A DNA stretch of 64,000 nt from NCBI RefSeq assembly GCF_012927085.1, contig NZ_JABBFX010000005.1:124001-188000 (forward strand), given 5' to 3'. The stretch's first letter is position 1, and every line of letters begins with the position of its first letter. The notes beneath the pieces are model-generated. The model did no database searches, was not told the origin of the DNA, and saw only the letters and a list, made by a program, of their open reading frames with translations. Positions 1 through 37,100 of this stretch are shown one piece after another. A program made the translations under genes and the position numbers. The stretch comes from Ramlibacter agri (GTDB lineage Bacteria > Pseudomonadota > Gammaproteobacteria > Burkholderiales > Burkholderiaceae_C).

Positions 1-3000
1 CCGCCGGCCGGCAGGTGCGCAGCGTCAGCTACGCCAAGCCCATCGACCTCGCGAATCTGGGCCTCACGCCCACCGCCGCCCAGGTGCAAGCGCTGCTGAT
101 GCCGCAAACCGCAGCCGACCAGGTGGAGAACCGCGTCTACGATCGCGACGGCCGTGTGGCTGCCACGGTGGACGGCCTGGGCGCCGTGGTCATTTACGGG
201 TACGACGCCAATGGCAATGTCGTCAACCGAATTGCCTACGCGAACCCACTGGCTTCGTGGACACCCGGCACCATGCCGGCGCCCACACCCAACTACCCTT
301 GCGACCAGCAGGTGCGGACGGTCTACGACGCCCTGAACCGCGCCATCTACACCATGGACGCGATGGGCGATGTCGTCGCGCAGACCTACGACGGCAACGG
401 CCGCGTGCTGACGCGCACGGCCTACGCGACGCCCGTCGCGGCCGGGACGCCGGCGACCCAGGCGGGCATCGCGGCGGCCGTTGCCAGCATCGCCAATTCC
501 GCCCGCGATGCAAGCGTGCGCAACGTGTACGACGCCGCGGGCCGGCTGTGCTGGAGCGTCGATGGCACCGGCGCGGTGACGCAGCGCATGTACGACCGCA
601 ACGGCAATGCGGTGCGCCTGGTGGAATTCGCGCAGGCCTTGCCGCAAGGCGCCGATCCCGCCTCCGTCGCCATCAGCACCGGCGACCGCGTGACCGCCAT
701 GGCCTACGACGCAGCGAACCGCCTGGTGTTCCAGGTCGATGCGCTGTCCGGCGTGACCGAGCAGGCGTACGACGGCAATGGCAACGTGGTGCGGCGCACC
801 GAGTACTCGAACCCCTGTACCAGCTTTCCCGCCCAAGGCGCGAACGCCAGCGCGATCAAGGCGACTGTGCTGCCGGACACGGCCAACGACCGCATCACCG
901 CGTACAGCTACGACGCCACCGGCCGGCAGGTGCTGGTGATCAGCGGGGAGGGCTCCGCGGTCGGGACCGCCTACGACGCCGCGGGCCGCGTAGTGGCCGT
1001 CACGCAGTATGCGGTGCCGGTCACGAGCTTCGCGGCGGCCGCCCTTTCCTCCTCCCCGCGAGACCGCGTCACACGTACGGCCTACGACGCCGCCGGCCGC
1101 GTCGCCTTCGTCGTCGATCCGCTCGGCGCCGTGACGGCCAGGCAGTACGACGGGATCGGGCGGCTGAAGCAGTCCATCCGCTACCTGAAGACCATGGATC
1201 CGACCCTGGCGAAGAGCGCCAGTGCCATCGCCACCGCCATGGTGCCGCTTTCTGATTCGGCCGTGGACCAGGTCGATTCCTTCTCTTGGGACGCCGCGGG
1301 CCGCCAGATCCAGCACACCGATGCGACCGGCGTGGCGGAGTTCTTCGGCTACGACGCCGTGGGCAACAAGGCGTTCTTCACCAACAAGAAGGGATCGGTG
1401 TGGACCTACACCTACGACGCGGCCGGCCGCCTACGGACCGAGACGACGCCTCAAGTGACGCTCGGTACCGTGGCTCCGACCGGACTCGGCGGCGGATTGG
1501 TTGCCACGGCGCAGTCGGCGGCCGCCTCCATCGTCACGCGACTGGACTACGACGCCCTGGGCAACCTCACGCGTCGCATCGAAGCCGAGGGACGGCCGGA
1601 GGCGCGCACCACCTGGTATGCCTACGATGCCGTGGGGCGGCAGGTCTGGGTGCTGCACTCGTTCATCACGATCTACGACGCACCGAACGACGACGTGCTT
1701 GTCAACGGCGCGATGGCCACCGCGCTGCGCCGCGACAAGCAGGCTGCGCCGGAGACGCGCACCTACTACGACGTCCTCGGCAACGCCGTCGCCAACTACG
1801 ACGTGCTGATCGGCGCGCTGACGCAGAAGGTCTACGACCGGATGGGCCGCGTCGTCTACGACATCGACGCGCTTGGACACCTCACCCGCTATACGCGCAA
1901 TGCCTTCGGCGAGGTGACGCAACAGCTGCAGTACGCGGCGGAGACCACGCTCGCCAATCGCAGCGTGACGCAAGCTTCCGCCGCGGCGACGCGGGCCCAG
2001 GCCGACGCGGTGCTGGCTGACGCGAGTGTCGATCGCACACTTGCGACCGCCTACGACCGGGCGGGGCAGGTGACGCAGCTCACGGGAGCGGTCGAGTACA
2101 TCTTCGAGCTGGATGCCAACGGCAATCGCATCAGCGGCGACAAGGCCGCGATCACCCGCAAGCGCTACGACGCCTTTGGCGAGGTGGTGCAGGAATGGAG
2201 CCTGCGCAATGCGATCGATCAATGGTCGCTGACCACGCACTACTACGACCAGGCCGGCCGCGAGGTCGCCACGGTCGACCCGCTCGGCTACCTCACGGAA
2301 CGCAGTTTCGACGGCCGCGGCAACCTGAAGCGGCTGACCGAGTACGCGACGGCCGTGGCGTCGTGGTCGGACTCGGCGTACGCCGCACCCGTGGCCGTCG
2401 TGGACGACCGCATCACCGACTACGGCTACGACCGCGCGGACCGCAAGACCATGGAGAACCGGCGCAACGTGGAATACGCCACGGGTGCGGACGGCAATTC
2501 GGTGCGGGGCGACGTGATCACCCGTTATGGCTACGACGTCCTCGGCAACCTGGTGAGCGTGACCGACGCCTACGGCGGCATGACGGCCACCTCCTATGAC
2601 GTGCTGGGTCGCGTCTCGGCAATCACGACGCCGGAGCGGCCCGTCGACACGGGCGACGGCGTGCCCGTCGCCCTGACGCCACTCACCACTTTCATCCGCG
2701 ACGCCTACGGCAATGAGCTGGGGAAGACCGAGTACGCGCGTGGCGCCACTCCGGGCACCTTCGCGCCCAAAGCGCCGCTGCTGGATGCTGATCGCACGAC
2801 GGCCAGCCTGTACGACACGGCTGGGCGCCTGCTGCAGACGACCGATGCCACGGGCGCCAACCTCTACTTCTCCTATGACGCCCAGGGGCGCGTGGCGAAG
2901 CAGTGGCAGGGCGTGACGGGGCTCGACAAGGTGGCGCACACCAAGTTCCAGGTCAACGTCTACGACAAGGGCGGAAACCTTCTCGAGACTTGGACGCCTG

Positions 3001-6000
3001 CTTCGACGACGGCGCTCCAGAGCGGGGCCATCGTCGATCTCACGCGGCAGCAGGCGGGAAAAGTCGTCACCAAGATGCAATACAACGCCTTCGGTGACCT
3101 CATTCGCCGTGGCGTCGGCACCACCCTGGACGAGTCCTTCGACTACGACAAGGCGGGCCGGCTGTGGCGCACGAACAGTGGCGATGGCGTGGTTCGCGTG
3201 CTGCTGCACGATGCGCAAGGGCACGTGACGGCGGAGATCCGGAGCTCGGGAGACGGCTACTACGTCGATCTCAGCAAGAAGGACGCTCGAGCGGCCGACA
3301 CAGCTACGTGGACGGGCAGGACGCAGACCCGCTACGACGCGGACGGACGGGTGGTGGCGACCTGGCTGCCGGGCCGGTTGCCCAGCACGGCGGACAACGT
3401 CGTTTCGCTGCACCGGCAGTACGTTGCGGGCAGCATCCTCGAGTCGACCTCTCCTGGGTATGTCGACCCGACCCTTCCCCCCGTGGTGGTCCTGAAAACG
3501 AACCGCGTCACCCTGTCCTGGAACAGCCTGCGCTACCTGGGTAGCGGCGACATCAAGGTAGTCCTCGAATACACCACGCTCTCGGGGGCGTCCGCTTCCA
3601 TGCAGTCCGAAGTGTTTACCGCGGAGCAGGCCGATTCGACAGTCACGCTTGCCTGGAAGGAAGCGGTGACGGCCCCCGACTTCGGCATCACCGGCATCAA
3701 CCGCGTTACCGTCTACAAGAAGGACGTCAGCGGCAACTGGCAGACCGTGATCTACCAGGCGCCCGGCTACGGCCCCAACGAAGTGGATGTGGCCGCACCG
3801 CCGGAACACGACGCCGCCATCCAGCTCGAGATGCGAGCCGCTGGAACCCAGGGTACCGGTGGCTGGTGGGCTTGCGGGCTGGTGAACTTCGGGGACCGCC
3901 TGGCCTTCAACGCCCAAGGGCTGGGCGCCGGCACCTACGAGTACCGGGTGCGAGTGACGCCCCCGGGTGGCTCCGAACGGATCATGGGCACGGGGACCGT
4001 GGCCGTTCCCGCACCCAATGGCCAGGACGTGCAGGCCGCCGGATTGAACAGCGACGTGCAGTGGCGCTGGCCCTACGTGGCGCAGAAAACCGACCGCTGG
4101 GGCAACGTGGTGGAAAAGACCGACCCGCGATCGGCCTACTGGAAGACCACCTACCGGTACAACGCGAACAACCAGCTGGTGCAGCAGACGCTGCCGGACG
4201 ACGCCGGGCAGACCAGCGCCAACAGCCCGGTGACGACCATCTACTACGACAAGCTCGGGCGCCAGGCGGCCGTGCGCGACGCGAACGGGCGCGTCACCGG
4301 TCAGGGCTTCGACTCGGGTGGCAACCTGGCGGTGGACGTGCAAGCCGACGGCTGGCTCGTGCGCCACACCTACGACATCTTCGGCGACGAGCTCCGCACC
4401 ACGAGCGCCGAGGGCCGCACCGTCGTCTACACCTACGACAAGGCCGGCCGCAAGTTGACCGCCACGCATGGCGTCGCCGCGGTCTACCAGGCGAGCGGCC
4501 AGTGGGCGTCGCAGGTCGACTATCGCAACATCATCGAACGTTGGACCTACGACGAACTGGGGAACAAGCTCAACGCGATCAACGGCAACTACGAGGAAAC
4601 GCAATACATCTACGACGTGCAGGGCAACCTGCTGCAGACCCGGTTGCCGCTCGGTATTTCCACCCGTGCCGCCTATGACGCGCAAGGCCGCAAGATCGCG
4701 GAGGTCGATGCGGAGGGCAAGTCGTCGCAGTGGACGTACGACTACTTCGGCCAGCTGAAGACGCACGTCGACCAGGGCGGCGGCATTTACCAGTACACGT
4801 ACGACGGCGTGCGCCAGCTGGTGAGGGAAGTCATCACCCGCGGCGCCCCGGCAACGACGCTCTTCTTCTCCTACGACTCCGCGGGCCAGGTCACCGAGAT
4901 GTACGACTCGGCGGTGGACAAGACCACCAGGTATTGGTACGACCTGAGCGGCAGGCGCGTCCGCGAATGGACGATGCAGGCAGGCGTCACCTACCAGGAC
5001 AACCACCTCGCCTACGACGCTCGCGGCAACCTGCGCGACGTGGCCGATTCGCGGGTGCACATCGCCATGGAGTACGACAAGGTCGGCAACCGCACGCACA
5101 TCGCGAGCTATGTCGACTACCGCGGGGTGAATGGAGCGGAGCAGCAGCCGCCGATCAGCGACCGTTGGTTCCGCTACGACGAGATGAACAGGCAGGTCAT
5201 CGTCGATGGCGTGGACGCGCTGAACATCGGCCAACAAGGCCACTCGATCGCGTACGACCACGATGGCAATCGCATCAGCGACCTGGCCTGGGGCAACCGC
5301 ATCGTGCAGTCTGGCGGGCAGGCAGTGCTGGTGGGTTTCAACTCGGACGACACCGCGGTCTACGGCACCACGCCAGTGACATTCAGCGCCGGTTCGGGCT
5401 ACAGCACCGAGGTCTATCGCTACGACGCGTTGTCGCGTTTGACGAGTGTCGTCAAAGACGGCGTCCAGATCGACATGCGCTTCTACGACGGCGCCGACCG
5501 CGTAATCCAGTCCGGCCCGGTGGTGGCGCTGCCGAGCACCAATTACGGCGACCTGATCAACCAAGGCGTTGCGCCCGGTGACATGAACGGCAAGGAGCGC
5601 CGGCTGAACCGCTATGACGCGAACGGACGCTTGCTGCAGCAGGCGGTCTACACGCCAAGTGGAAGCACGAAGGTGGTCATCCACTGGGGCCCCGGCGACG
5701 CCGTCGAAGGCAAGGATCCGGATGGCTACGACCGGGCGGGCAACGTGAAAGGCTACGTGGTGCAGAACTACGAAGCCGGGGAGGTGACCGAGTTCACCAA
5801 CTCGCCGGCCTACTACGAGGGCGCGGTCGTGCAGACGACGGTCGGGAATTCCTCCAAGCGCGGAACGGCGACCACCACGCAAAGCTACGACGCGAACGGG
5901 TACCTGGTCGGCCTTGTCGACTCAGGCCAGCACGCCAACGACCGGATCTTCGTGAACGACGCTAGCGGGCGTGCCCTGTTCGTCAATCAGGGCGGCAATG

Positions 6001-8249
6001 TGCAGCGCCAGTTCATCGTCAACGGCGAAGTTCTGGGCATCTATGGCGCGGCCGTCAACCCGCTAGCCAGCGGCAGCACGCCGCAGTTCGCCAACCTGGT
6101 GGATTTCGACTTTGGCTATGCGCGCATCAGCGCGAGCTATCCGCTGCCAAGCCCTGGCGCGTATACGGTGCGCACCGGCGACACGCTCCAGAGCATCGCC
6201 CAGGGTGCCTACGGCGACAGCAGCCTCTGGTACCGCATCGCCGAAGCCAATGGCCTCGCATCCGCCAAGGACCTGAAGGTCGGCACGACGCTGAACATCC
6301 CGAACCGGGTGTCCAGCATCCACAACAACGCGAGCACGTTCGAGCCCTACGACCCGAGCCGGATCGAGGGGGACAAGACGCCGACGATGCCGATGCCGCA
6401 GAACAAGCATGGCTGCGGGGGTGTGGGGACGTTGGTGATGGTGATCGTGGCGGTTGCCGTGACGGCCATGACCGGCGGAGCCGGTGGCGTCATAGCGCAA
6501 GCCCTGATCGATATGGGCATGGCCGCCATAGCGGATGTGGGTGCCTTCGTGATCGGAGCAGCGCTGGGCAACATGGCGGGGCAGGCCGTTGGCATGGCCA
6601 TCGGTGCTCAGGACCGATTTGATTGGAAGTCGGTGGGTCTAAGCGCGGCGTCTGCCGCCTTCACGGCTGGTATCGGAGTCGCAGCCAATACACCTGGGGG
6701 AGTCCTGTCCGACACCTTCCTTTCAGGGAGTGAGACCCCGGCGATCATGGGACGTGCGGCGGTGAGCAACCTGGCAACGCAGGGTTTGGGGGTCGCTACT
6801 GGCCTGCAAGATCATTTCGACTGGCGCGGGGTGGCAGCGTCCTACTTCGGCAGCGGGCTCAGTAACGACGTGGCCGGGCAGGTTGGAGACTTTGGCGGTA
6901 CAGCTGCCGGACTGTTTGCGAACCGCGCGGTCAGCGCTTTCGCCGGAGGGACCCTTGCGCAGCTGATGCGCGGTGGGCGGGTGGTCGTGCAGCAGGTGGC
7001 GGTGGATGCGTTTGGGAACACCATAGGCGAGAGTCTCGCTGCAGTAGCCCACGACCAGATCGTCTTCAACTTGTCAAACTCCGGAAACGAAAGTGCAGCA
7101 GGAAGCCAGATCGGTGCAGGTCCAAATCGCAATATCGACGGAGAAGGTTGGGATCTAAACGTCGTCGCTCGGCGCGCCGAGAGAGATCCGTATGGGATAC
7201 GCCAGAACGGTGCAGATGCTGCATCAGTCATGCGTCGAGCCAAGGCGCTCTGGGGCACCGAGGTCGTCGGTGGGTTGAGCGATTCCTCGACGGAGTCTGA
7301 TGTGCTGGCCGTTCAAATGAGGGCCGCCGGATTTCAAGACGATGTCATGTTAGTGGGAGGTGCAAGCGTACGCGTAACGCCGCGCACGGGTGCCGTCTCG
7401 GGTGAGATCAATGGGATAAGTGTTAACGCACGCGCTGATGCAGCGTTTCAGGCTGCCGGAGACTTACTTGGTATGGGAGACCTCTATCGAGACTACAAGC
7501 TGCTGGGATCGCTCATGAGCGACCTTCAACAGACCGCGACGCTCGACAAGCTTAAAGGCGCACTTCAGGAGAAGCTTGGAATGATGCGGGTGGTGCCTTC
7601 TCCCGAAGCCTTAGGGGCCACATCGAACCTCGGAGATGACGGCGTCGTTCGGTACAACAATGCGGAACTAATCGACCGATATGCGGATGCGCTTCGGAAG
7701 GTTGAAATGTGGAAGCGAGGCATCGTTGAACTAGATACACGCAGCATGTTGATCACGTCGATTGGCAATCAGCGCATGAGCCCGACACAGTGGGTCGAGG
7801 AAAACACGCAACGCTATCAACGTGCGTTCGCTGCCGCTGTCGAGGATGGACGCCAAAAGTACGCCCAAGGCGCGCTGCCATATCCCTCCGAAATGCCGGA
7901 GCAACTTCAGGTTGGCGTATTCGGTCACCAACAGGCTGAGCGAGTGATTGTTCGCTATAACACTGCACTTGGCGTTCCTGAGGGACCAGGCCAGTTGATC
8001 GTCATGAATAGGTGGGCATATGATCCAGCAGGGACTGGAACGACGATACGGCCAGACATGCTCCTGGACTTGGGGCCGAATCGGCCAGGGCAAGTCCTGC
8101 GCTTCGTGGTGGATGGCAAATCTTCTCTCGTAGAGGCCCAATCCTCAAATTCGCAATTCAGTCGTGCGAGTGAGTGGCTTGGCACGCGATCGATTAGGGC
8201 TGCAACTCCTGAAGGATTGTGGTCATGGACACCTACGAAACGGAGGTGA
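1..8249 (+). CDS. RHS/YD-repeat protein with LysM domain and probable toxin tail (5' truncated)
   Basis: Reading frame open from nucleotide 3, so the start lies upstream; residue numbers here count the GTG at 15 as 1. Residues 1 to about 2040 are dense YD repeats (YDxxGR, YDANGN, YDxLGN), which in RHS proteins wrap into a beta cage. They are interrupted at about 1142-1349 by a stretch without YD repeats that looks like beta-sandwich. A LysM domain (YTVRTGDTLQSIA) covers about 2050-2096. I see no DPxGL motif of the usual RHS core end. A Gly/Ala-rich hydrophobic segment (about 2138-2197) follows. The last 400 residues look unlike the rest and use less GC-rich codons. They end in a PD-(D/E)xK-like arrangement: E2642, RPD with D2681, and DGK at 2700-2702. 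I infer a secreted polymorphic toxin whose tail is a nuclease. The family call is sure; the toxin activity is inference. Confidence 0.85.
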   Translation, partial: AGRQVRSVSYAKPIDLANLGLTPTAAQVQALLMPQTAADQVENRVYDRDGRVAATVDGLGAVVIYGYDANGNVVNRIAYANPLASWTPGTMPAPTPNYPCDQQVRTVYDALNRAIYTMDAMGDVVAQTYDGNGRVLTRTAYATPVAAGTPATQAGIAAAVASIANSARDASVRNVYDAAGRLCWSVDGTGAVTQRMYDRNGNAVRLVEFAQALPQGADPASVAISTGDRVTAMAYDAANRLVFQVDALSGVTEQAYDGNGNVVRRTEYSNPCTSFPAQGANASAIKATVLPDTANDRITAYSYDATGRQVLVISGEGSAVGTAYDAAGRVVAVTQYAVPVTSFAAAALSSSPRDRVTRTAYDAAGRVAFVVDPLGAVTARQYDGIGRLKQSIRYLKTMDPTLAKSASAIATAMVPLSDSAVDQVDSFSWDAAGRQIQHTDATGVAEFFGYDAVGNKAFFTNKKGSVWTYTYDAAGRLRTETTPQVTLGTVAPTGLGGGLVATAQSAAASIVTRLDYDALGNLTRRIEAEGRPEARTTWYAYDAVGRQVWVLHSFITIYDAPNDDVLVNGAMATALRRDKQAAPETRTYYDVLGNAVANYDVLIGALTQKVYDRMGRVVYDIDALGHLTRYTRNAFGEVTQQLQYAAETTLANRSVTQASAAATRAQADAVLADASVDRTLATAYDRAGQVTQLTGAVEYIFELDANGNRISGDKAAITRKRYDAFGEVVQEWSLRNAIDQWSLTTHYYDQAGREVATVDPLGYLTERSFDGRGNLKRLTEYATAVASWSDSAYAAPVAVVDDRITDYGYDRADRKTMENRRNVEYATGADGNSVRGDVITRYGYDVLGNLVSVTDAYGGMTATSYDVLGRVSAITTPERPVDTGDGVPVALTPLTTFIRDAYGNELGKTEYARGATPGTFAPKAPLLDADRTTASLYDTAGRLLQTTDATGANLYFSYDAQGRVAKQWQGVTGLDKVAHTKFQVNVYDKGGNLLETWTPASTTALQSGAIVDLTRQQAGKVVTKMQYNAFGDLIRRGVGTTLDESFDYDKAGRLWRTNSGDGVVRVLLHDAQGHVTAEIRSSGDGYYVDLSKKDARAADTATWTGRTQTRYDADGRVVATWLPGRLPSTADNVVSLHRQYVAGSILESTSPGYVDPTLPPVVVLKTNRVTLSWNSLRYLGSGDIKVVLEYTTLSGASASMQSEVFTAEQADSTVTLAWKEAVTAPDFGITGINRVTVYKKDVSGNWQTVIYQAPGYGPNEVDVAAPPEHDAAIQLEMRAAGTQGTGGWWACGLVNFGDRLAFNAQGLGAGTYEYRVRVTPPGGSERIMGTGTVAVPAPNGQDVQAAGLNSDVQWRWPYVAQKTDRWGNVVEKTDPRSAYWKTTYRYNANNQLVQQTLPDDAGQTSANSPVTTIYYDKLGRQAAVRDANGRVTGQGFDSGGNLAVDVQADGWLVRHTYDIFGDELRTTSAEGRTVVYTYDKAGRKLTATHGVAAVYQASGQWASQVDYRNIIERWTYDELGNKLNAINGNYEETQYIYDVQGNLLQTRLPLGISTRAAYDAQGRKIAEVDAEGKSSQWTYDYFGQLKTHVDQGGGIYQYTYDGVRQLVREVITRGAPATTLFFSYDSAGQVTEMYDSAVDKTTRYWYDLSGRRVREWTMQAGVTYQDNHLAYDARGNLRDVADSRVHIAMEYDKVGNRTHIASYVDYRGVNGAEQQPPISDRWFRYDEMNRQVIVDGVDALNIGQQGHSIAYDHDGNRISDLAWGNRIVQSGGQAVLVGFNSDDTAVYGTTPVTFSAGSGYSTEVYRYDALSRLTSVVKDGVQIDMRFYDGADRVIQSGPVVALPSTNYGDLINQGVAPGDMNGKERRLNRYDANGRLLQQAVYTPSGSTKVVIHWGPGDAVEGKDPDGYDRAGNVKGYVVQNYEAGEVTEFTNSPAYYEGAVVQTTVGNSSKRGTATTTQSYDANGYLVGLVDSGQHANDRIFVNDASGRALFVNQGGNVQRQFIVNGEVLGIYGAAVNPLASGSTPQFANLVDFDFGYARISASYPLPSPGAYTVRTGDTLQSIAQGAYGDSSLWYRIAEANGLASAKDLKVGTTLNIPNRVSSIHNNASTFEPYDPSRIEGDKTPTMPMPQNKHGCGGVGTLVMVIVAVAVTAMTGGAGGVIAQALIDMGMAAIADVGAFVIGAALGNMAGQAVGMAIGAQDRFDWKSVGLSAASAAFTAGIGVAANTPGGVLSDTFLSGSETPAIMGRAAVSNLATQGLGVATGLQDHFDWRGVAASYFGSGLSNDVAGQVGDFGGTAAGLFANRAVSAFAGGTLAQLMRGGRVVVQQVAVDAFGNTIGESLAAVAHDQIVFNLSNSGNESAAGSQIGAGPNRNIDGEGWDLNVVARRAERDPYGIRQNGADAASVMRRAKALWGTEVVGGLSDSSTESDVLAVQMRAAGFQDDVMLVGGASVRVTPRTGAVSGEINGISVNARADAAFQAAGDLLGMGDLYRDYKLLGSLMSDLQQTATLDKLKGALQEKLGMMRVVPSPEALGATSNLGDDGVVRYNNAELIDRYADALRKVEMWKRGIVELDTRSMLITSIGNQRMSPTQWVEENTQRYQRAFAAAVEDGRQKYAQGALPYPSEMPEQLQVGVFGHQQAERVIVRYNTALGVPEGPGQLIVMNRWAYDPAGTGTTIRPDMLLDLGPNRPGQVLRFVVDGKSSLVEAQSSNSQFSRASEWLGTRSIRAATPEGLWSWTPTKRR
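3440..4060 (+). other. Non-YD insert inside the RHS protein
   Basis: About 200 residues without YD repeats interrupt the repeat array. They hold alternating hydrophobic/polar strands (VTLSWNSLRY, YEYRVRVTPPGG) suggestive of one or two beta-sandwich domains such as fibronectin type III or carbohydrate-binding folds. The YD repeats resume with YRYNANNQLVQQ. The fold is inferred from strand pattern only. Confidence 0.4.
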
Positions 8250-8253
8250 GGAA

Positions 8254-8649
8254 ATGGGGAAGAAGGAAGTGAGAGAGTTCGAGGATGAACTCGTTGGCGT
8301 GCAGGGAGGCATATCATTGTTCCGGAAGGGAATTGATGAGTTCTTCCTTTCGCACGGTTTCTTGATTGCGAACGACAAGCTGCAGGCCGCGCGCAAGGAT
8401 TTGGAGGCGCTTGGGTTGTTCGAGCGGTGCAGTCAGGCGCTCCGACGCACAGAGGAACTCGTGAAACTTGGTCCGGCGCACGACCAGGAGGCCGAGATGC
8501 TGATCCTCGAGACCGCTCGCGCTCTGATGAAGGCGTCTGGTACGCATGACGCCATGCGCAAGATGCTCCTCCAGAAGCCCACTGCTTCAGTTGAAGACTA
8601 CAAGCCCGATCCAGATGCGTGGGCGCGAGAAGATCGGCAGAACAAGTAG
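8254..8649 (+). CDS. Candidate immunity protein for the RHS toxin tail
   Basis: A 131-residue protein starting 4 nt after the RHS stop codon. The start is chosen because a GGAGG ribosome-binding site (8242-8246), which overlaps the RHS 3' end, lies 7 nt upstream of this ATG; an in-frame upstream extension lies wholly inside the RHS gene. The product has no signal peptide or membrane segment, is rich in charged residues and looks mostly helical. Like the toxin tail it is less GC-rich than the surrounding genes. I do not recognise a family. Small cytoplasmic proteins directly behind the variable tail of RHS proteins are normally immunity proteins, so the role is inferred from position, size and codon use. 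Confidence 0.6.
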   Translation: MGKKEVREFEDELVGVQGGISLFRKGIDEFFLSHGFLIANDKLQAARKDLEALGLFERCSQALRRTEELVKLGPAHDQEAEMLILETARALMKASGTHDAMRKMLLQKPTASVEDYKPDPDAWAREDRQNK

Positions 8650-19104: not shown

Positions 19105-22100
19105 ATGAACCACGTCTACCGCATCATCTGGAACGACAGTACCGGGGCCTACCAGGCGGTGGCCGAGACGGCGGGCGGGCGCGGCAAGAAGAGCCTGGGC
19201 AAGAAGGCACGCGCGGCGCGGCTGCTCGGGTTGGCGGGCCTGGTGGCCGGCAGCGCGCTGGCCGAGCCGACGGGCGGGCAGATCAGCGCGGGGCAGGGCA
19301 GCATCCAGCAGGCCGGGCCGGTCACGACCATCCGGCAGGACAGTTCGAAGCTGGCGATCAACTGGCAAAGCTTCAGCGTGGGCACGCAGGAGACCGTCAA
19401 CTTCGTGCAGCCCGGCGCCAGTGCCATCGCACTCAATCGCGTGGTGGGCACGGACGGCAGCAGCATCCTGGGCAACATCAACGCCAACGGGCAGGTGTTC
19501 CTGCTCAACCCGAACGGCGTGCTGTTCGGCCGCTCGGCGCAGGTCAACGTGGGCGGACTGCTGGCGTCGACGCTGTCGATGTCGGATGCGGACTTCCTCG
19601 CGGGCCGCTACGTGCTGCAAGGCAACGGCACGGGCGTTGTCCGCAACGAGGGCACGCTGAACGCCGCGCCGGGCGGCTACATCGCGCTGGTCGGCGCGCA
19701 GGTGCAGAACAGCGGCACGATCACCGCGGACAAGGGCACCGCGGCGCTGGCTGCGGGCAACAAGGTGACACTGGACTTCGCCGGCGATGGCCTGCTGCGC
19801 CTGTCGGTCGACGAAGGAACGCTGAACGCGCTCGCTGCCAACGGCGGCGTGATCCGCGCCGACGGCGGCACCGCGGTGCTGACCGCGCGCGCGGCCGACA
19901 CGCTGGCCGCCACGGTGGTCAACAACACCGGCCTGATCCAGGCGCGCACGCTGGAGAACCGCAACGGCACGATCAGGCTGCTGGGCGGATCCAACGGCGG
20001 CACCGTGCAGGTGGACGGCACGCTGGACGCGAGCGCGCCCAACGGCGGCAACGGCGGCTTCATCGAAACGAGCGGCGCGACGGTGAAGGTGAGCGACAGC
20101 GCGCACATCACGACGCAGGCGGCGCAAGGCCAGACCGGCAAGTGGCTGATCGACCCCACCGACTACACCGTGGCTGCCTCCGGCGGCGACATGACGGGCG
20201 CGGCCCTGAGCAACGCGCTCACCACCACCGACGTGGAGATCCAGAGCACGGCCGGCGGGAGCGCCGGCAGCGGCGACGTCAACATCAACGACACGGTGAG
20301 CTGGAGCGCCAACACGCTCACGCTGAACGCGCAGCGCAACGTCAACATCAATGCGGTGATGAGCGGCAGCGGCACCGCGGGCCTGGCGCTGTGGTACGGG
20401 CAGGGCGCGGTGGCCGCGAACAACACGGCGAGCTACAACGTCAACGCGCCGGTGGACCTGGCCAGCAGCGGCAGCTTCCAGACCAAGCTGGGAAGCGACG
20501 GCACGCCCATCAACTGGACCATCATCACCAGCCTGGGTGCGCAGGGGTCCACCACGGGTACGGACCTGCAGGGCATCAACGGCAACCTGGCAGGCTACTA
20601 CGTGCTGGGGTCGGACATCGATGCCAGTGCCACGGCGGGGTGGAACGGCGGGAAGGGGTTCGAGCCGCTGGGCAATCCGTCCAGCAACGTGCTCTATGCA
20701 ACGCAGTTCACCGGTGCGTTCGATGGCCTGAATCACAGCGTCAAGAACCTCACGATCAACAACACGGTCGATCCCGGCAGCTACCAAGGAGGCTTCTATG
20801 TCGGCCTCTTCAGCTGGATCGGCTATGGCTCCGTGGTGCGCAACGTCGGACTGGCCGGAGGCTCCATCGCGGGGGACTACGGCGTGGGGGCGCTGGCCGG
20901 CGAAAACGACGGCACGATCAGCAACGTCTATTCCACCGCCAACGTCACCGGCAGTTCCAGTGCTGGGATCGTGAACTTCTTCGGCGCCAACAGCGACTAT
21001 GTCGGCGGGCTGGTCGGCTTCAACTACGGCAGCATCAACCAGGCCTACGCCACGGGCAACGTCAACATCGTCGACAACATTGGCTATGCCTCGGCCAGCA
21101 ATGTCGGTGGCCTGGTCGGTGTCAGTTCCGGCAGCATCAGCAACAGCTACGTCACGGGCTCGGTCTCGGGAGCGGGCGTGGGATGGTTCTGCGGACTGAC
21201 CTGCGGCGGCGCCACCAGCAACAGCTTCTACGCCACGACGGATGCCGCCGGCAATGCCATCAACACCGGGAGCGCCGACTACTACTACGGCACCACCAGC
21301 CTCGGCAGGACCTACGCCGATCTCCAGAGGCTCAGCACCTTCTCGTCCTGGGGCAGCAGCATCGCTGCGCAAGGCGGCTCGGGCGCGGCCTGGCGCATCT
21401 ACGACGGGAACACGACGCCCCTGCTGCGTTCCTTCCTGAGGCCTTACGTCGTCACGGTGACGCCGGACTACGACGGCTTGACCACGTCCTTTGGCAGCAT
21501 CGCGAGCTTCACGTACACCGGCAACATCAGCGATCCGCTGATCCTGGGCACGCTCACCAGCGGCGGCACCGGCGGCACGCTCACGCTGAGCGGGGGCGCG
21601 GCCGGCAGCTACGTAGCCACGCTGGCAACCAGCCTCGACGGCGTCTATTCCACCCAGCAGGGCTACGACCTCAGCTTCAAGGGAAGCCGCGTCATCAGCA
21701 CCGCCGACACGGCGGGCGGCGCCGCGGGTGACGTGGTGCTGCCCTCGGGCGGACTGAGCTGGACCAGCGGCACCCTGAACATCAACACCAGCGGCAACGT
21801 CAGCGCCAGCGCGGCCCTCAACGGCACCAGCCTGAACATCAGCGCCGCGAACGTCGCGCTGGCCGGGGGCAGCCTCAGCAACAGCCTGACGGTGAATACC
21901 GCCGGCACCCTCAGCAACATTGCGCCCCTGAGCACCGCCGCCGCCACCATCACGGCACCGGACATCACCGCCACCTTCCTGGACAACCTCCCGGTCAGCG
22001 GCAGCCTCACGCTCAACACCAGCGGCTCGCTCGTGCTGCCGTCGTACAACCTCGCCAGTCTCACGCTCAACGCCGGCGGCACCATCACCGAAGACCACGC

Positions 22101-28100: not shown

Positions 28101-31100
28101 CAAATGGGTTGGTGGCCTGGTGGGCTACATGCAGGGCGGTGCCCTGGACAACTCACATGCGGCGGGCATGGTCGGTGGCAACGACTTCGCCGGTGGCCTG
28201 GTGGGCTACCTGGCGGGCGGAAGCGTCAGCACGGTCTACGCGACGGGCAATGTCGCGGCCCCCAGCGATGCGGGTGGCCTGATAGGCGCCATGATGGGGG
28301 GCGGGGTCTCCACCGCGTTCGCGACGGGCGATGTCGTCGGCGACGCGCACGGCGGATCGAACACCGGCGGGCTGGTGGGCTACATGAACAGCGCCAGCAT
28401 CCTCGATGCCTATGCGACAGGCAACGTCAGCGGCTTCGTGGGCGTGGGCGGACTGCTCGGCCAGGCCGTCTACGGCAACATCACCAATACCTATGCCACG
28501 GGCGGTGTCACCGGCAGAATCGCGGCTGGAGCGCTGACGGGCGCTACCGCGGGAACCAATCTTGCCGCCAACTTCTCCGACGGCAGCCTCACCACCCAAT
28601 CGAGCACCTATGCCGGCGCGGGCTGGAGCATCGACGCAGAAGGCGGCACGGGCAGTACCTGGCGCATCTACGAAGGCAGCACCTTGCCGCTGCTGCGCGC
28701 CTTCCTCACGCCGCTGACCGCGACGCTGCAAAGTGGCCTGGGCAAGACCTACGACGGCAGCGCCGCCAGTGGCAGCGCCGGCTACACGCTCAGCGACGGC
28801 ACCGCGAGCGTCAGCGTCAGCGGCAGCGCCAGCATCAACTACGCCACCGGCAGCAGGAACGCGGGCGCCTACAGCGTCGCCGGCGGCAACCTGGCGGTGA
28901 GCGGCGACCTGTATTCCGGCCAGCTGGGCTACGACATCAGCTACGCCGGCAGCTACGCGATCGCGCAGAAGCAGGTCACGGGCACGGTCACCACGAGCGA
29001 CAAGGTCTATGACGGCACCACGGCGGCGTCGGTGAGCGGCACGCTGAACACCGCGGGCATCGTCAGCGGCGACGTGGTGAGCCTGAAGACCGATGGCGGG
29101 AGCTTCGCCGACAAGAACGTCGGCACTGCCAAGGTGGTCGACGTCAGCAGCGCGCTGCAGGGCGCGGACGCCGGCAATTACGTACTGGTGAATACAGGCG
29201 GCGCCTTGACCGCGAACATCACGCCCGCAGCGCTGACGGTGAGCGGCGTCACGGCGCAGGACAAGGTGTACGACGCCAGCACAGTGGCGACGCTGAATAC
29301 CGGCGCGGCCGTCCTGGGCGGCCTCATCGCGGGCGACGTGGTGACGGTCTCGGGCTTGACGGGCGGCTTCGCGGACAAGAACGCGGGAACGGACAAGGCC
29401 GTGGCGGTCAGCGGCGCCACGCTGGGCGGCGCCGACGCCGGCAACTACACGGTGAGCAACCCGACGGGCCTGACGGCCAGCATCACGCCGGCGACGCTGA
29501 CGGTGACTGGCGTGACGGCGCAGGACAAGGTGTACGACACCACGACGGCGGCCTCGCTCGCCGGGACCGCGAGCCTGCTTGGTGTTCTGGGAACCGATTC
29601 CGTGAGCGTGGGTGGCCTTTCCGGCAGCTTCGCCGACAAGAACGCGGGCACCAACAAGGACGTCACCGTGGCCGGTGCCACGCTGGCCGGCATCGACGCC
29701 GGCAACTACACGGTCAGCAACCCGACGGGCCTGACGGCGAGCATCACGCCGGCAGCGCTCACGGTGAGCGGCGTGACGGCGCAGGACAAGGTTTACGACC
29801 GCAGCACCGCCGCGTCGCTGGACACGTCCGGCGTCACGCTCAACGGCGTGCTGGGAAGCGACTCGGTCAGCGTGTCGGGCCTGGCCGGCAGCTTCGCGGA
29901 CAAGAATGCAGGCACCAACAAGGCGGTCGCGGTCAGTGGCGCGACGCTGGGCGGAGCCGACGGCGGCAACTATGTCGTGAGCAATCCCACCGGCTTGACC
30001 GCAAGCATCACGCCTGCGTCGCTGGCGGTGAGCGGTGTGACCGCGCAGGACAAGGTGTACGACACCACCACGGCCGCCGCGCTGAACACCAGCGCCGCGA
30101 GCCTGTCCGGCGTCATCTCCGGCGACGCGGTGAGCGTGTCCGGCATGACGGGCAGCTTCGCCGACAAGAACGCCGGCACGAACAAGTCGGTGACGGTCGC
30201 CGGCGCCACGCTGGGCGGGGCCGATGCCGGCAACTACACGGTGACCAACCCGACGGGCGTCACGGCCAGCATCACGCCCGCCTCGCTGACGGTTGGCGGC
30301 GTCGTCGCACAGGACAAGGTGTACGACCGCACCACCGCCGCTTCCCTGGACACGTCCGCTGCCACGCTCTCCGGCGTGCTGGCAGGCGACACGGTGAGCG
30401 TGTCGGGCTTGAGCGGCAGCTTCGCCGACAGGAACGTGGGCACCAGCAAGGCGGTCACCGTCAACGGTGCGACGCTGAGTGGCGCGGACGGAGGCAACTA
30501 CGTCGTGAGCGCCCCCGCCGGTTTGACGGCCAGCATCGCGCCCGCTTCGTTGACGGTGAGCGGCGTGACGGCGCAGGACAAGGTGTACGACACCACCACG
30601 ACGGCCTCGCTCCTTGGTGCCGCGAGCCTGGTCGGTGTGATCGCCGGCGATACGGTGACCGTGTCGGGCCTGAGCGGCAGCTTCGCGGACAAGAACGCCG
30701 GCACGAACAAATCGGTGACAGTCAGCGGCGCGACCCTGGGCGGCGCCGATGGCGGCAACTATGTGGTGAGCAACCCGACGGGCCTGACGGCGAGCATCAC
30801 GCCTGCGTCGCTGACGGTGAGCGGTGTGACCGCGCAGGACAAGGTGTACGACCGTACCGCCACGGCGTCGCTGGACACGACGGCCGCCACGCTCAACGGC
30901 GTGCTGGGAAGCGATTCGGTGAGCGTGTCGGGCCTCGGCGGCAACTTCGCCGACAAGAACGCCGGCACGAACAAGTCCGTGACGGTGGGCGGCGCCACGC
31001 TGGCCGGGGCGGATGCGGCCAACTACACGGTGGCCAACCCCACGGGCCTGGCGGCGACCATCACGCCGGCGTCGCTGACCGTGAGCGGCGTCATCGCGCA

Positions 31101-34100
31101 GGACAAGGTGTACGACCGTACCACCACGGCTTCGCTGGACACGACGGCCGCCACGCTCAACGGCGTGCTGGCCGGCGATGCCGTGAGCGTGTCGAACCTT
31201 TCCGGCAGCTTCGCCGACAAGAACGCCGGCGCGAACAAGTCGGTGACCGTTGCCGGCGCCACGCTGGGTGGCGCCGATGGCGGCAACTACATCGTGAGCA
31301 ACCCCACGGGCCTGGCGGCAAGCATCACGCCCGCGGCGTTGACGGTGAGCGGTGTGATTGCGCAGGACAAGGTCTACGACCGCAGCACCACGGCCTCGCT
31401 GGACATGGCAGCGGCCACGCTCTCCGGCGTGCTGGCGGGCGATGCGGTGAGCGTGTCGGGGCTGGCCGGCAGCTTCGCGGACAAGAATGCCGGGACGAAC
31501 AAGACGGTGACGGTCGGCGGCGCCACGCTGGGCGGGGCCGACGCGGGCAACTACACCGTGACCAACCCGACGGGCTTGACGGCGAGCATCACACCCGCGG
31601 CGCTGACGGTCAGCGGCGTCACCGCGCAGGACAAGGTGTACGACACCACGACGACGGCGTCGCTGGGGACTGGTGCCGCGAGCCTGGTCGGCGTGCTGGC
31701 CGGCGACGCCGTGAACGTGGCTGGCCTTTCCGGCAGCTTCGCGGACAAGAACGCTGGCACGAACAAGGCGGTCACCGTCGCGGGTGCAACGCTGGGCGGA
31801 GCCGATGCCAGCAACTACACGGTGACCAATCCGGCGGGCCTGACCGCGAGCATCACGCCGGCGTCGCTGACGGTCAGCGGCGTGACGGCACAGGACAAGG
31901 TGTACGACGCCACGTCGATTGCCTCGCTGAACACGGGCGCCGCAACCCTGGTCGGCGTGCTGGCCGGCGATGCGGTGAATGTCTCGGGCCTGAGCGGGAG
32001 CTTTGCCGACAAGAACGCGGGTGCGAACAAGGCGGTGACCGTCAACGGCGCCACGTTGGGCGGGGCGGACGGCGCGAACTACATCGTGAGCAATCCCGCC
32101 GGGCTGACGGCCAGCATCACGCCGGCGCAGCTCACGATGAGCGGTGTCACTGCGCAGGACAAGATCTACGACGCCACGACGAGCGCAGCGTTGAACACCG
32201 GTGCCGTGAACCTGGTCGGCGTGATTGCCGGCGACACGGTCAGCGTCTCGGGTCTCTCCGGCAGCTTCGCCGACAAGAACGCGGGCACGAACAAAGCCGT
32301 GGCGGTCAGCGGCGCGACGCTGGGGGGCACCGATGGCGGCAATTACACGGTGAGCAACCCCTCCGGGCTGACGGCCAGCATCACGCCGGCGCAACTCACG
32401 GTGGGCGGCGTCACCGCGCAGGACAAGGTGTACGACACCACGACGGCGGCTTCCCTGAACACAGGATTCGCCAGCCTGGTCGGCGTGCTGGGAAGCGACA
32501 CCGTGAGCGTGTCGGGCCTCAGCGGCAGCTTCGCCGACAAGAACGCCGGCACGAACAAGTCCGTGACGGTGGCCGGCGCCACGCTGGCCGGGGCGGATGC
32601 GGCCAACTACACCGTGGCCAACCCCACGGGCCTGGCGGCGAGCATCACGCCGGCGTCGCTCACGGTGAGCGGCGTCACGGCGCTGGACAAGGTGTACGAC
32701 CGCACCACGGCCGCATCGCTGGACACGTCCGCGGCCGCTCTCGCCGGCGTGCTCGCGGGTGATACGGTGAGCGTGTCGGGCCTGAGCGGCAGCTTCGGCG
32801 ACAGGAACGTCGGTACGAACAAGGCGGTCACCGTCAACGGTGCCACGCTGGGCGGCGTGGACGCGGGCAACTACACGGTGGCCAACCCGGCAGGCCTGAC
32901 GGCGAGCATCACGCCAGCGCAGCTCACGGTGAGCGGCGTCACCGCGCAGGACAAGGTGTACGACGCCACGACGACTGCCGCGCTGAACACGGGTGCCGCA
33001 ACGCTGGCCGGCGTGCTGGCCGGCGATACGGTGAGTGTGTCGGGCCTGAGTGGCAGCTTCGCGGACAAGAACGCCGGCACGAACAAATCGGTGACGGTCA
33101 GCGGCGCGACGCTGGGCGGCGCCGATGGCGGCAACTATGTCGTAAGCAACCCCACGGGCCTGGTGGCGAGCATCACCCCCGCGGCGCTCACGGTGAGCGG
33201 CGTGACCGCGCAGGACAAGGCCTACGACCGCGGCACGACGGCCACGCTCGCCACGGCAGCCGCCAACCTGGTCGGCGTGATTGCCGGCGACACGGTGAGC
33301 GTGTCGGGACTTTCCGGAAGCTTCGCGGACAAGAACGCCGGCACGAACAAGGCGGTCACCGTCGCTGGTGCAACGCTGGGCGGAGCCGACGCTGGCAACT
33401 ACACGGTGACCAACCCGACGGGCCTGGCGGCGAGCATCACGCCCGCGTCGCTGACGGTGAGCGGTGTCACCGCGCAGGACAAGGTGTACGACGCCACCAC
33501 GGCGGCTTCGCTGAACACAGGTGCGGCAAGCCTGGTCGGCGTGCTTGCGGGCGACTCGGTGAGCGTGTCGGGCCTGAGCGGGAGCTTTGCCGACAAGAAC
33601 GCCGGAACGAACAAGGCGGTCACGGTCGCCGGTGCCACGTTGAGCGGTGCCGACGGCAGCAACTACGTCGTGAGCAACCCCTCCGGGCTGACGGCGAGCA
33701 TCACGCCGGCGGCGTTGACGGTGAGCGGCGTGTCGGCGCAGGACAAGGTCTACGACGCCACGACGACTGCTTCGCTGAACACCGGTGCCGCGATCCTGGT
33801 CGGCGTGATCGCCGGCGACACAGTCAGCGTCTCGGGCCTTTCAGGCAGCTTTGCGGACAAGAATGCGGGCACGAGCAAGGCCGTGGCGGTCAGCGGTGCG
33901 ACGCTGGGCGGGGCCGATGGTGGCAACTATACGGTCAGCAACCCGACGGGGATCACGGCCAGCATCACGCCGGCGTCGCTCACGGTGAGCGGCGTCACGG
34001 CGCTGGACAAGGTGTACGACACCACCACGATTGCCACGCTGAACACGGGATCTGCAAGCCTGGGCGGCGTGGTCGCCGGCGATGCGGTGAGCGTGTCGGG

Positions 34101-37100
34101 CATGACGGGCAGCTTCGCCGACAAGAACGTCGGCACGAGCAAGGCGGTGACGGTGGCTGGTGCGACGCTGGGCGGGGCGGACGCCGGCAACTACACGGTG
34201 AACAACCCTGCCGGCGTGACGGCCGGCATTACGCCCGCGACCTTGACGGTCGTCGGCGTGGGCGCACAGGACAAGGTCTACGACCGCACGACCACCGCCT
34301 CGCTGGACACGTCCGCTGCGACGCTCTCCGGCGTGCTCGCGGGTGACACCGTGAGCCTGTCCGGCCTGAGTGGCAGCTTCGCCGACAGGAACGCCGGCAC
34401 GAGCAAGGCGGTCACGGTCAGTGGCGCCACCCTGGGTGGCGCCGATGGCGGCAACTACACGGTCGGCAGCCCCACGGGGCTCACGGCCAGCATCACCCCG
34501 GCGCAGCTCTCGGTGAGCGGCGTGACGGCACAGGACAAAGTCTATGACCGCACCATCACCGCTTCGTTGGACACGTCCGCTGCCACGCTTTCCGGTGTGC
34601 TTGCGGGCGACTCGGTCAGCGTGTCGGGCCTGAGTGGGAGCTTTGCCGACAAGAACGCGGGCACGAACAAGGCAGTCACCGTCGCCGGTGCGGCCTTGGG
34701 CGGTGCCGACGCCGGCAACTACACGGTGAGCAACCCGGCAGGCTTGACGGCGAGCATCACGCCGGCGTCGCTGACCGTGAGCGGTGTCACGGCGCAGGAC
34801 AAGGTGTACGACGCCACCACCGCGGCCTCGCTGAACACTGGTGCAGCAAGCCTGGTTGGCGTGCTGGCCGGCGACGCCGTGAGCGTGTCGGGCCTGAGCG
34901 GCACCTTCGTCGACAAGAACGCAGGCACGAACAAGGCAGTCACCGTCGCCGGTGCGGCCTTGGGAGGTGCCGACGCCGGCAACTACACGGTGAGCAACCC
35001 GACGGGCCTGACGGCGAGCATCACGCCGGCGTCGCTGACGGTCGGCGGCGTGACGGCGCAGGACAAGGTCTACGACGCCACCACGGCGGCGTCGCTGAAC
35101 ACCGGTGCTGCGAACCTGGTCGGCGTGATCGCCGGCGACACGGTATCGCTTTCCGGCCTGAGCGGAAGCTTCACCGACAAGAACGCAGGCACCAACAAGG
35201 CGGTCACCGTCAGCGGAGCCACGCTGGGCGGCACCGATGGCGGCAACTATGTTGTGAGCAATCCCACGGGCCTGGTGGCGAGCATCACGCCCGCGGCGCT
35301 CACGGTGAGCGGCGTGACCGCGCAGGACAAGGTCTACGACCGCAGCACGACTGCCACGCTCGATACGGCAGCCGCCAACCTGGTCGGCGTGATCGCCGGC
35401 GATACGGTCAGCGTGTCGGGCCTGAGCGGCAGCTTCGCTGACAGGAACGCGGGCACGAACAAGGTGGTCACCGTCAGCGGTGCGACGCTGGGCGGGGTGG
35501 ACGGTACGAACTACGTCGTGAGCAATCCCGCCGGGCTGACGGCCAACATCACGCCCGCGGCGTTGACGATCACCGGCGTCGCGGCGCAGGACAAGGTCTA
35601 CGACCGCGGTGCGTCCGCCACGCTGGACACCGGTGCTGCGAGCCTGGTTGGCGTGATCGCCGGCGACGTGGTGAGCGTCGCCGGCCTGAGCGGCAGCTTC
35701 GCGGACAAGAACGCGGGGACGAACAAGACTGTCACCGTTACCGGCGCCACGCTGGGCGGGACGGATGGCGGCAACTACACGGTGAGCAACCCCACCGGCC
35801 TCACGGCCAGCATCGCGCAAGCGTCGCTGACGGTGAGCGGTGTCACCGCGCAAGACAAGGTGTACGACACCACCGCGACGGCCTCGCTGAACACGGGCGC
35901 CGCGAGCCTGGTCGGCCTGCTGGCCGGCGATGCCGTGAGCGTCTCGGGACTTTCCGGCGGCTTCGCGGACAAGAACGCCGGCACGAACAAGGCAGTCACG
36001 GTCTCCGGTGCCGCGCTGGGCGGAGCCGACGCCGGCAACTACACGGTCAGCAACCCGACGGGCTTGACGGCCAGCATCACTCCCGCGTCGCTGACGGTGA
36101 GCGGCGTGACGGCGCAGGACAAGGTCTATGACCGCACCGTCACGGCCTCGCTGGACACGGCCGGCATGACGCTCGCCGGCGTGCTGGCGGGCGACTCGGT
36201 GAACGTGTCCGGGCTGGCCGGCAGCTTCGCCGACAAGAACGCCGGCACGAACAAGGCGGTGAGCGTCAACGGTGCCACGCTGGGCGGAGCCGACGCCGGC
36301 AACTACACGGTAAGCAACCCCAGCGGGTTGACCGCAAGCATCACTCCCGCTGCGTTGACAGTCAGCGGCGTGACGGCGCAGGACAAGGTCTATGACGCCA
36401 CCACGACTGCCGCACTGAACACTGGTACAGCGAACCTGGTCGGCGTGATTGCCGGCGACACGGTGAGCGTGTCCGGGCTGGCCGGCAGCTTTGCCGACAA
36501 GAACGCCGGCACCAACAAGTCGGTGACGGTGGCTGGTGCCACGTTGGGCGGCACCGACAGCGGGAACTACACGGTGGCCAATCCCACCGGCCTGGCGGCG
36601 AGCATCACGCCGGCATCGCTGACGGTGAGCGGCATCACTGCGCAAGACAAGGTCTACGACAGCACGGCGGCGGCGACCCTCGTAGGCGGTTCGCTCGCCG
36701 GCGTGCTCGCCGGCGACACGGTGACGGTGTCCGGCCTGGCCGGCACGTTCGACACGAAGAACGTCGGCACCGGCAAGGTTGTGAGCGTGTCGGGCGCGAC
36801 GCTGGGCGGCGCCGATGCCGGCAACTACACCGTCGCCAATCCGGCCGCACTGACGGCCGACGTCACGGCGGCGACGCTGACGGTCACGGGCGTGAGCGCG
36901 AGCAGCAAGGTGTACGACAGCACCACGGCTGCGACGCTCAACGGCGGCAGTCTTGCCGGCGTGTATGCCGGCGATGCCGTCACGCTCACGGGCATGGCCG
37001 GTGCGTTCGACACGAAGAACGTCGGCAACGCCAAGCCCGTGACGGTCACCGGCGCGGCGCTCGCCGGCGTCGACAGCGGCAACTACGTCGTCGCGAATCC

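Follow-up and report, generated by a model that had tools for sequence, protein, structure and literature searches.

The window analysed here is a 64,000-nucleotide (nt) stretch of the Ramlibacter agri genome (assembly GCF_012927085.1, contig NZ_JABBFX010000005.1, positions 124,001-188,000, forward strand); this report concerns the C-terminal tail of a giant RHS protein encoded at its start and the small gene that follows. The RHS/YD-repeat carrier gene (15-8249, + strand) is cut by the window edge: its entire open frame has 4256 codons and the predicted protein (P0004) 4210 amino acids (aa), so the 2744 aa encoded within the window are a window artefact, and residue numbers of the RHS protein (E2642, D2681 etc.) are given in window numbering (2744 aa). 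Along the carrier, RHS repeats (Pfam RHS_repeat, E 2.4e-82, 20 stretches) precede a LysM domain (residues 2050-2096), a Gly/Ala-rich pre-toxin region and the variable C-terminal tail. Homology among relatives of the tail begins between residues 2374 and 2386 (nt 7094-7130) and runs through residue 2744, and the toxin tail was placed at 7134-8249 (+), with its TGA stop at 8247-8249. The small gene (8254-8649, +, ATG start) begins 4 nt past this stop and encodes a 131-aa protein that is predicted to be all-alpha (L015 and L016 were excluded from its structure alignment) and is a candidate immunity protein. Its Shine-Dalgarno sequence (GGAGG, 8242-8246, +) lies within the end of the toxin gene, as stated in an earlier note on this DNA that was made from the letters alone. 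We consider it probable that the last ~360 residues of the carrier are an exchangeable toxin domain, a PD-(D/E)xK nuclease, and that the 131-aa protein is its immunity partner. A second RHS-repeat locus was seen in the same genome (G000:C1:1448931-1452129), spread over two open frames (1141 and 849 codons).

The LysM and pre-toxin part of the carrier (residues 2040-2350; 6132-7064, +) is common to 233 proteins with many different tails (E 1e-10 or better). For the comparison of tails, 120 listed proteins out of the 233 were used with the addition of P0006 and P0008 (122 carriers; 113 plus 9). The alignment reached the pre-toxin end in 97 carriers; the other 25, including P0006, which bears the window tail, were dropped before counting, as was P0061, with a tail of only 12 aa. 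The 96 remaining tails (at least 40 aa) fell into 53 clusters, a count that depends on thresholds of our own choosing (E 1e-5, 60 aligned residues, match extending past 60% of both tails), and the cluster of the window tail had nine members. Three carriers, selected since their listed Pfam domains indicated toxins, were checked with Pfam and carried Tox-REase-7, YwqJ-deaminase and WHH tails. RHS repeats, a shared pre-toxin region and varied tails are the polymorphic toxin architecture, and the tail is exchangeable, as the earlier note had proposed.

Nine giant RHS proteins, the window's own among them, end in this tail; the tails of the other eight are 44-64% identical to it (protein collection, proteins of comparable length only). 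A contig scan yielded five tail loci, in Ideonella livida, Rhizobacter sp. Root1221, a Rubrivivax metagenome-assembled genome (MAG; two loci) and a Burkholderiales MAG; L002 and L008 denote a single locus and were counted once. Of 399 genomes drawn evenly from the window's family, three matched the tail (one being the window's own genome, one a chance match), and 2/399 did so in a draw from its order; the window's own genome holds a single copy. This rare and patchy distribution agrees with the expectation for exchangeable tails. Neither protein had been recognised in the earlier note, and no named family was found for the tail or the small protein in Pfam, NCBIfam, PHROGs, PADLOC or the PDB. 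For the window tail, Pfam gave no family at E 1 (RHS repeats and LysM were named elsewhere in the carrier), NCBIfam gave one match below the cut-off (E 0.12), and PHROGs and PADLOC gave no match; the tails of L005, L007 and G627 had no Pfam family at E 5.

The modelled nuclease core (residues ~2589-2744; 7779-8246, +; L017 was excluded from the structure alignment) consists of a helix (2629-2651), three strands (2662-2664, 2682-2685, 2696-2700), a helix (2709-2722) and two strands (2727-2731, 2734-2737), an order that resembles that of the PD-(D/E)xK core. When the model was re-aligned by structure, 15 of the first 18 rows were PD-(D/E)xK nucleases; the list includes Cas4, restriction endonucleases, Can2/Card1, TnsA and AddAB, and the first four share the modelled strand and helix order and give the best structural alignments. 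The model leans towards the restriction-endonuclease fold suggested earlier, and E2642, R2679-P2680-D2681 and D2700-G2701-K2702 sit exactly where they had been reported. Across 14 aligned tails, E2656, Q2660, N2665, R2666, W2667, D2670, R2679, D2681, D2685, K2702 and Q2714 are invariant and position 2700 is D or E; in the model, the invariant residues fall at the termini of strands two and three and in the helix after them. D2681, [D/E]2700 and K2702 are kept in 14/14 tails, which is the D...[DE]xK arrangement in successive strands that characterises the PD-(D/E)xK superfamily. The motif proposed in the earlier note therefore held for D2681 and D2700-x-K2702 but not for E2642, whose column has E in three tails and K or R in 11; judged from the aligned sequences, E2656 and D2670 would be better candidates for the motif acid.

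The tail was compared with known toxins as follows. In a review of polymorphic toxins (PMC3482391), Tox-REase families 1-10 include RHS carriers with restriction-fold tails, and the listed signatures are 'E, D, ExK, Q' for Tox-REase-1 and 'GxxxE, IxD, ExK, Q' for Tox-REase-7. Their order is that found in the window tail (E2656, D2681, [DE]GK, Q2714), and among the families covered there Tox-REase-1, -6 and -7 are nearest in kind, without a sequence match: none of the Tox-REase Pfam models matched the window, L005, L007 or G627 tails. Tox-REase-7 is borne by a carrier with the same pre-toxin region as the window protein (P0080), and its tail was not among the matches of the window tail's nuclease profile. 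When this nuclease-part profile was run against the 96 tails and the G627 tail, three tails that are not rows of it were matched (P0060, 98.8% probability; L017 from G627, 98.1%; P0083, 85%), the next candidate reaching 27% over 17 columns; P0004-P0012 are rows, and their own scores are not evidential. The three sister tails keep PD, DG and Q as in the window tail, but their lysine stands at D+6 (DG[ST]xGxK) and that of the window tail at D+2 ([DE]GK), which suggests, at the level of sequence, a wider clade in which the lysine has migrated. The G627 sister tail lies at L017:2413-2958 (+), and the gene behind it is, by profile, no relative of the 131-aa protein.

The nature of the substrate was considered separately. 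The same pair and fold could belong to a nuclease acting on RNA (e.g. tRNA) and not on DNA, a reading that we regard as possible but rather doubtful: Can2 and Card1, which cut RNA as well as DNA, are in the structural list and the sequence does not fix the substrate, but the list also names Cas4, restriction enzymes and AddAB, whose substrate is DNA. The Tox-REase review also deems DNA, including the target genome, the plausible substrate (PMC3482391).

Several results count against a nuclease and would suit a toxin tail of the same locus type that is not one, its conserved acids and lysine having only a resemblance to PD-(D/E)xK. The sequence searches matched no nuclease and that of the PDB gave nothing convincing, the Foldseek search of the model was not significant, Z and pLDDT (predicted local distance difference test) values were moderate, and when the tail was shuffled 20,000 times the loose E-PD-[DE]xK pattern occurred in 5.2% of the shuffles, so that the bare motif is weak. 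Because of this last figure independent tests were needed, and weight was placed on conservation and fold and not on the motif. These independent lines concur, since the invariant residues fall at modelled strand ends and in the next helix and nucleases head the structural re-alignment; a toxin that is not a nuclease is thus unlikely.

The small gene was examined in the same loci. A relative of it lies directly 3' of the tail, where a cognate gene is expected, in 6/6 loci (window, L004-L008), which bears out the earlier claim that the gene is dedicated to this tail; the gap from the tail stop is 4-5 nt in the window, L004 and L005, and the genes overlap in L006-L008. Apart from itself, the small protein (P0002) has 18 homologues; by tblastn it found four of the five other partners (5e-24 to 9e-7), and the L006 partner was reached via P0028 (5e-9). 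With the small-protein family profile, the six partners scored 99.87-100 versus 4.6 for the next among the other 189 of 195 entries, but the six are profile rows themselves and these scores prove nothing. Tail and partner identities are correlated (r 0.92 over six loci, two of them from one genome; 8/720 relabellings reach this r). None of the 24 members of the small-protein family matched any Pfam model at E 0.01, and P0002 alone gave only Acyl-CoA_ox_N below the cut-off (E 0.081). In this respect the family is unlike Imm49, the all-helical immunity family given for Tox-REase-1 and -6 in the same review (PMC3482391), which is likewise an all-alpha partner of restriction-fold toxins.

An all-helical protein of this size is not distinctive, and the small gene could encode a chaperone or be an unrelated passenger. 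This is quite improbable in view of its constant place behind the tail, its divergence with the tail and its 3' position, which is typical of immunity genes. It was also found in 4/399 genomes of the family scan, two of which lack an intact tail (G177, G322), and such persistence fits immunity better than a chaperone. In G177, the small-protein relative (L015:5493-5867, -) has no tail match within 11 kb and is an orphan immunity candidate; in G322, the small gene (L016:4976-5516, -) lies directly behind a decayed tail match of 67 residues, with an IS3-like transposase piece nearby (by eye). At L002:2878-3880 (-), next to a relative of the pair, lie a further RHS tail piece and two small genes of 98 aa that are nearly identical to each other; by profile these are not related to the window pair, and the region resembles a set of spare toxin/immunity cassettes in an array.

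The G+C (GC) content is 0.563 in the tail and 0.573 in the small gene, versus 0.669 in the RHS part up to nt 6000; at third codon positions (GC3) the values are 0.566, 0.705 and 0.879, respectively. The drop that the earlier note had described for the last 400 residues and the small gene is therefore real, but it does not start there: a single GC3 break is best placed at residue 2154 (nt 6477), within the pre-toxin region and ahead of residue 2350. In the segment 6477-8649 (+), GC3 falls from 0.88 to 0.61 at this residue, ~200 residues ahead of the tail homology. Lower GC would also be seen in a decayed, non-functional tail closing a structural RHS protein, but with an intact frame and motif residues fully conserved in tails down to 36-47% identity this is very improbable.

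For an immunity-protected nuclease toxin, the following mechanism is proposed. The RHS shell, LysM and pre-toxin region would carry the tail out of the producer and into a competitor, where the tail would cut nucleic acid, DNA being likelier than RNA, at a PD-(D/E)xK site that binds metal. The metal ligands are probably D2681 (with D2685, possibly E2656 or D2670) and D2700; K2702 would be the lysine of [DE]xK, and Q2714 would stand in the following helix. The small protein, probably translated from the same message as the toxin, would bind the tail and shield the producer and its kin. The type VI secretion system sheath protein VipB (PF05943) had no match in the window's genome (G000, listed as 100% complete) in a search that was positive in E. 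coli among 14 controls and covered no other type VI part or secretion system.

Elsewhere in the window, a giant open reading frame (ORF) of 6818 aa (17374-37830, +) has an ESPR signal, a TPS secretion domain, GLUG motifs, 33 YDG-domain stretches and a 264-bp tandem array of 29.7 copies (29097-36929), and resembles an exoprotein of two-partner secretion. As the ESPR starts at residue 578, translation probably begins near nt 19105.

By the searches made, the pair is undescribed: neither its toxin family nor its immunity family has a name, though the kind of system is well known. It is conceivable, and put forward here tentatively, that the tail belongs at the root of a restriction-fold toxin clade not described before, whose catalytic lysine has shifted between branches ([DE]GK in that of the window, DG[ST]xGxK in sister branches on RHS carriers). 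Each branch would have different immunity proteins, those of the window's branch forming a new all-helical family, and the giant LysM-RHS carrier would be delivered without a type VI apparatus. The pair adds toxin and immunity families that have clear borders and candidate catalytic residues, and related tails that differ in the place of their lysine allow the migration of an active site within a nuclease fold to be followed in a natural example. The many LysM-RHS carriers with this pre-toxin region, in this case from a genome that gave no VipB match, also draw attention to the route by which such giants exit the cell and reach a target.
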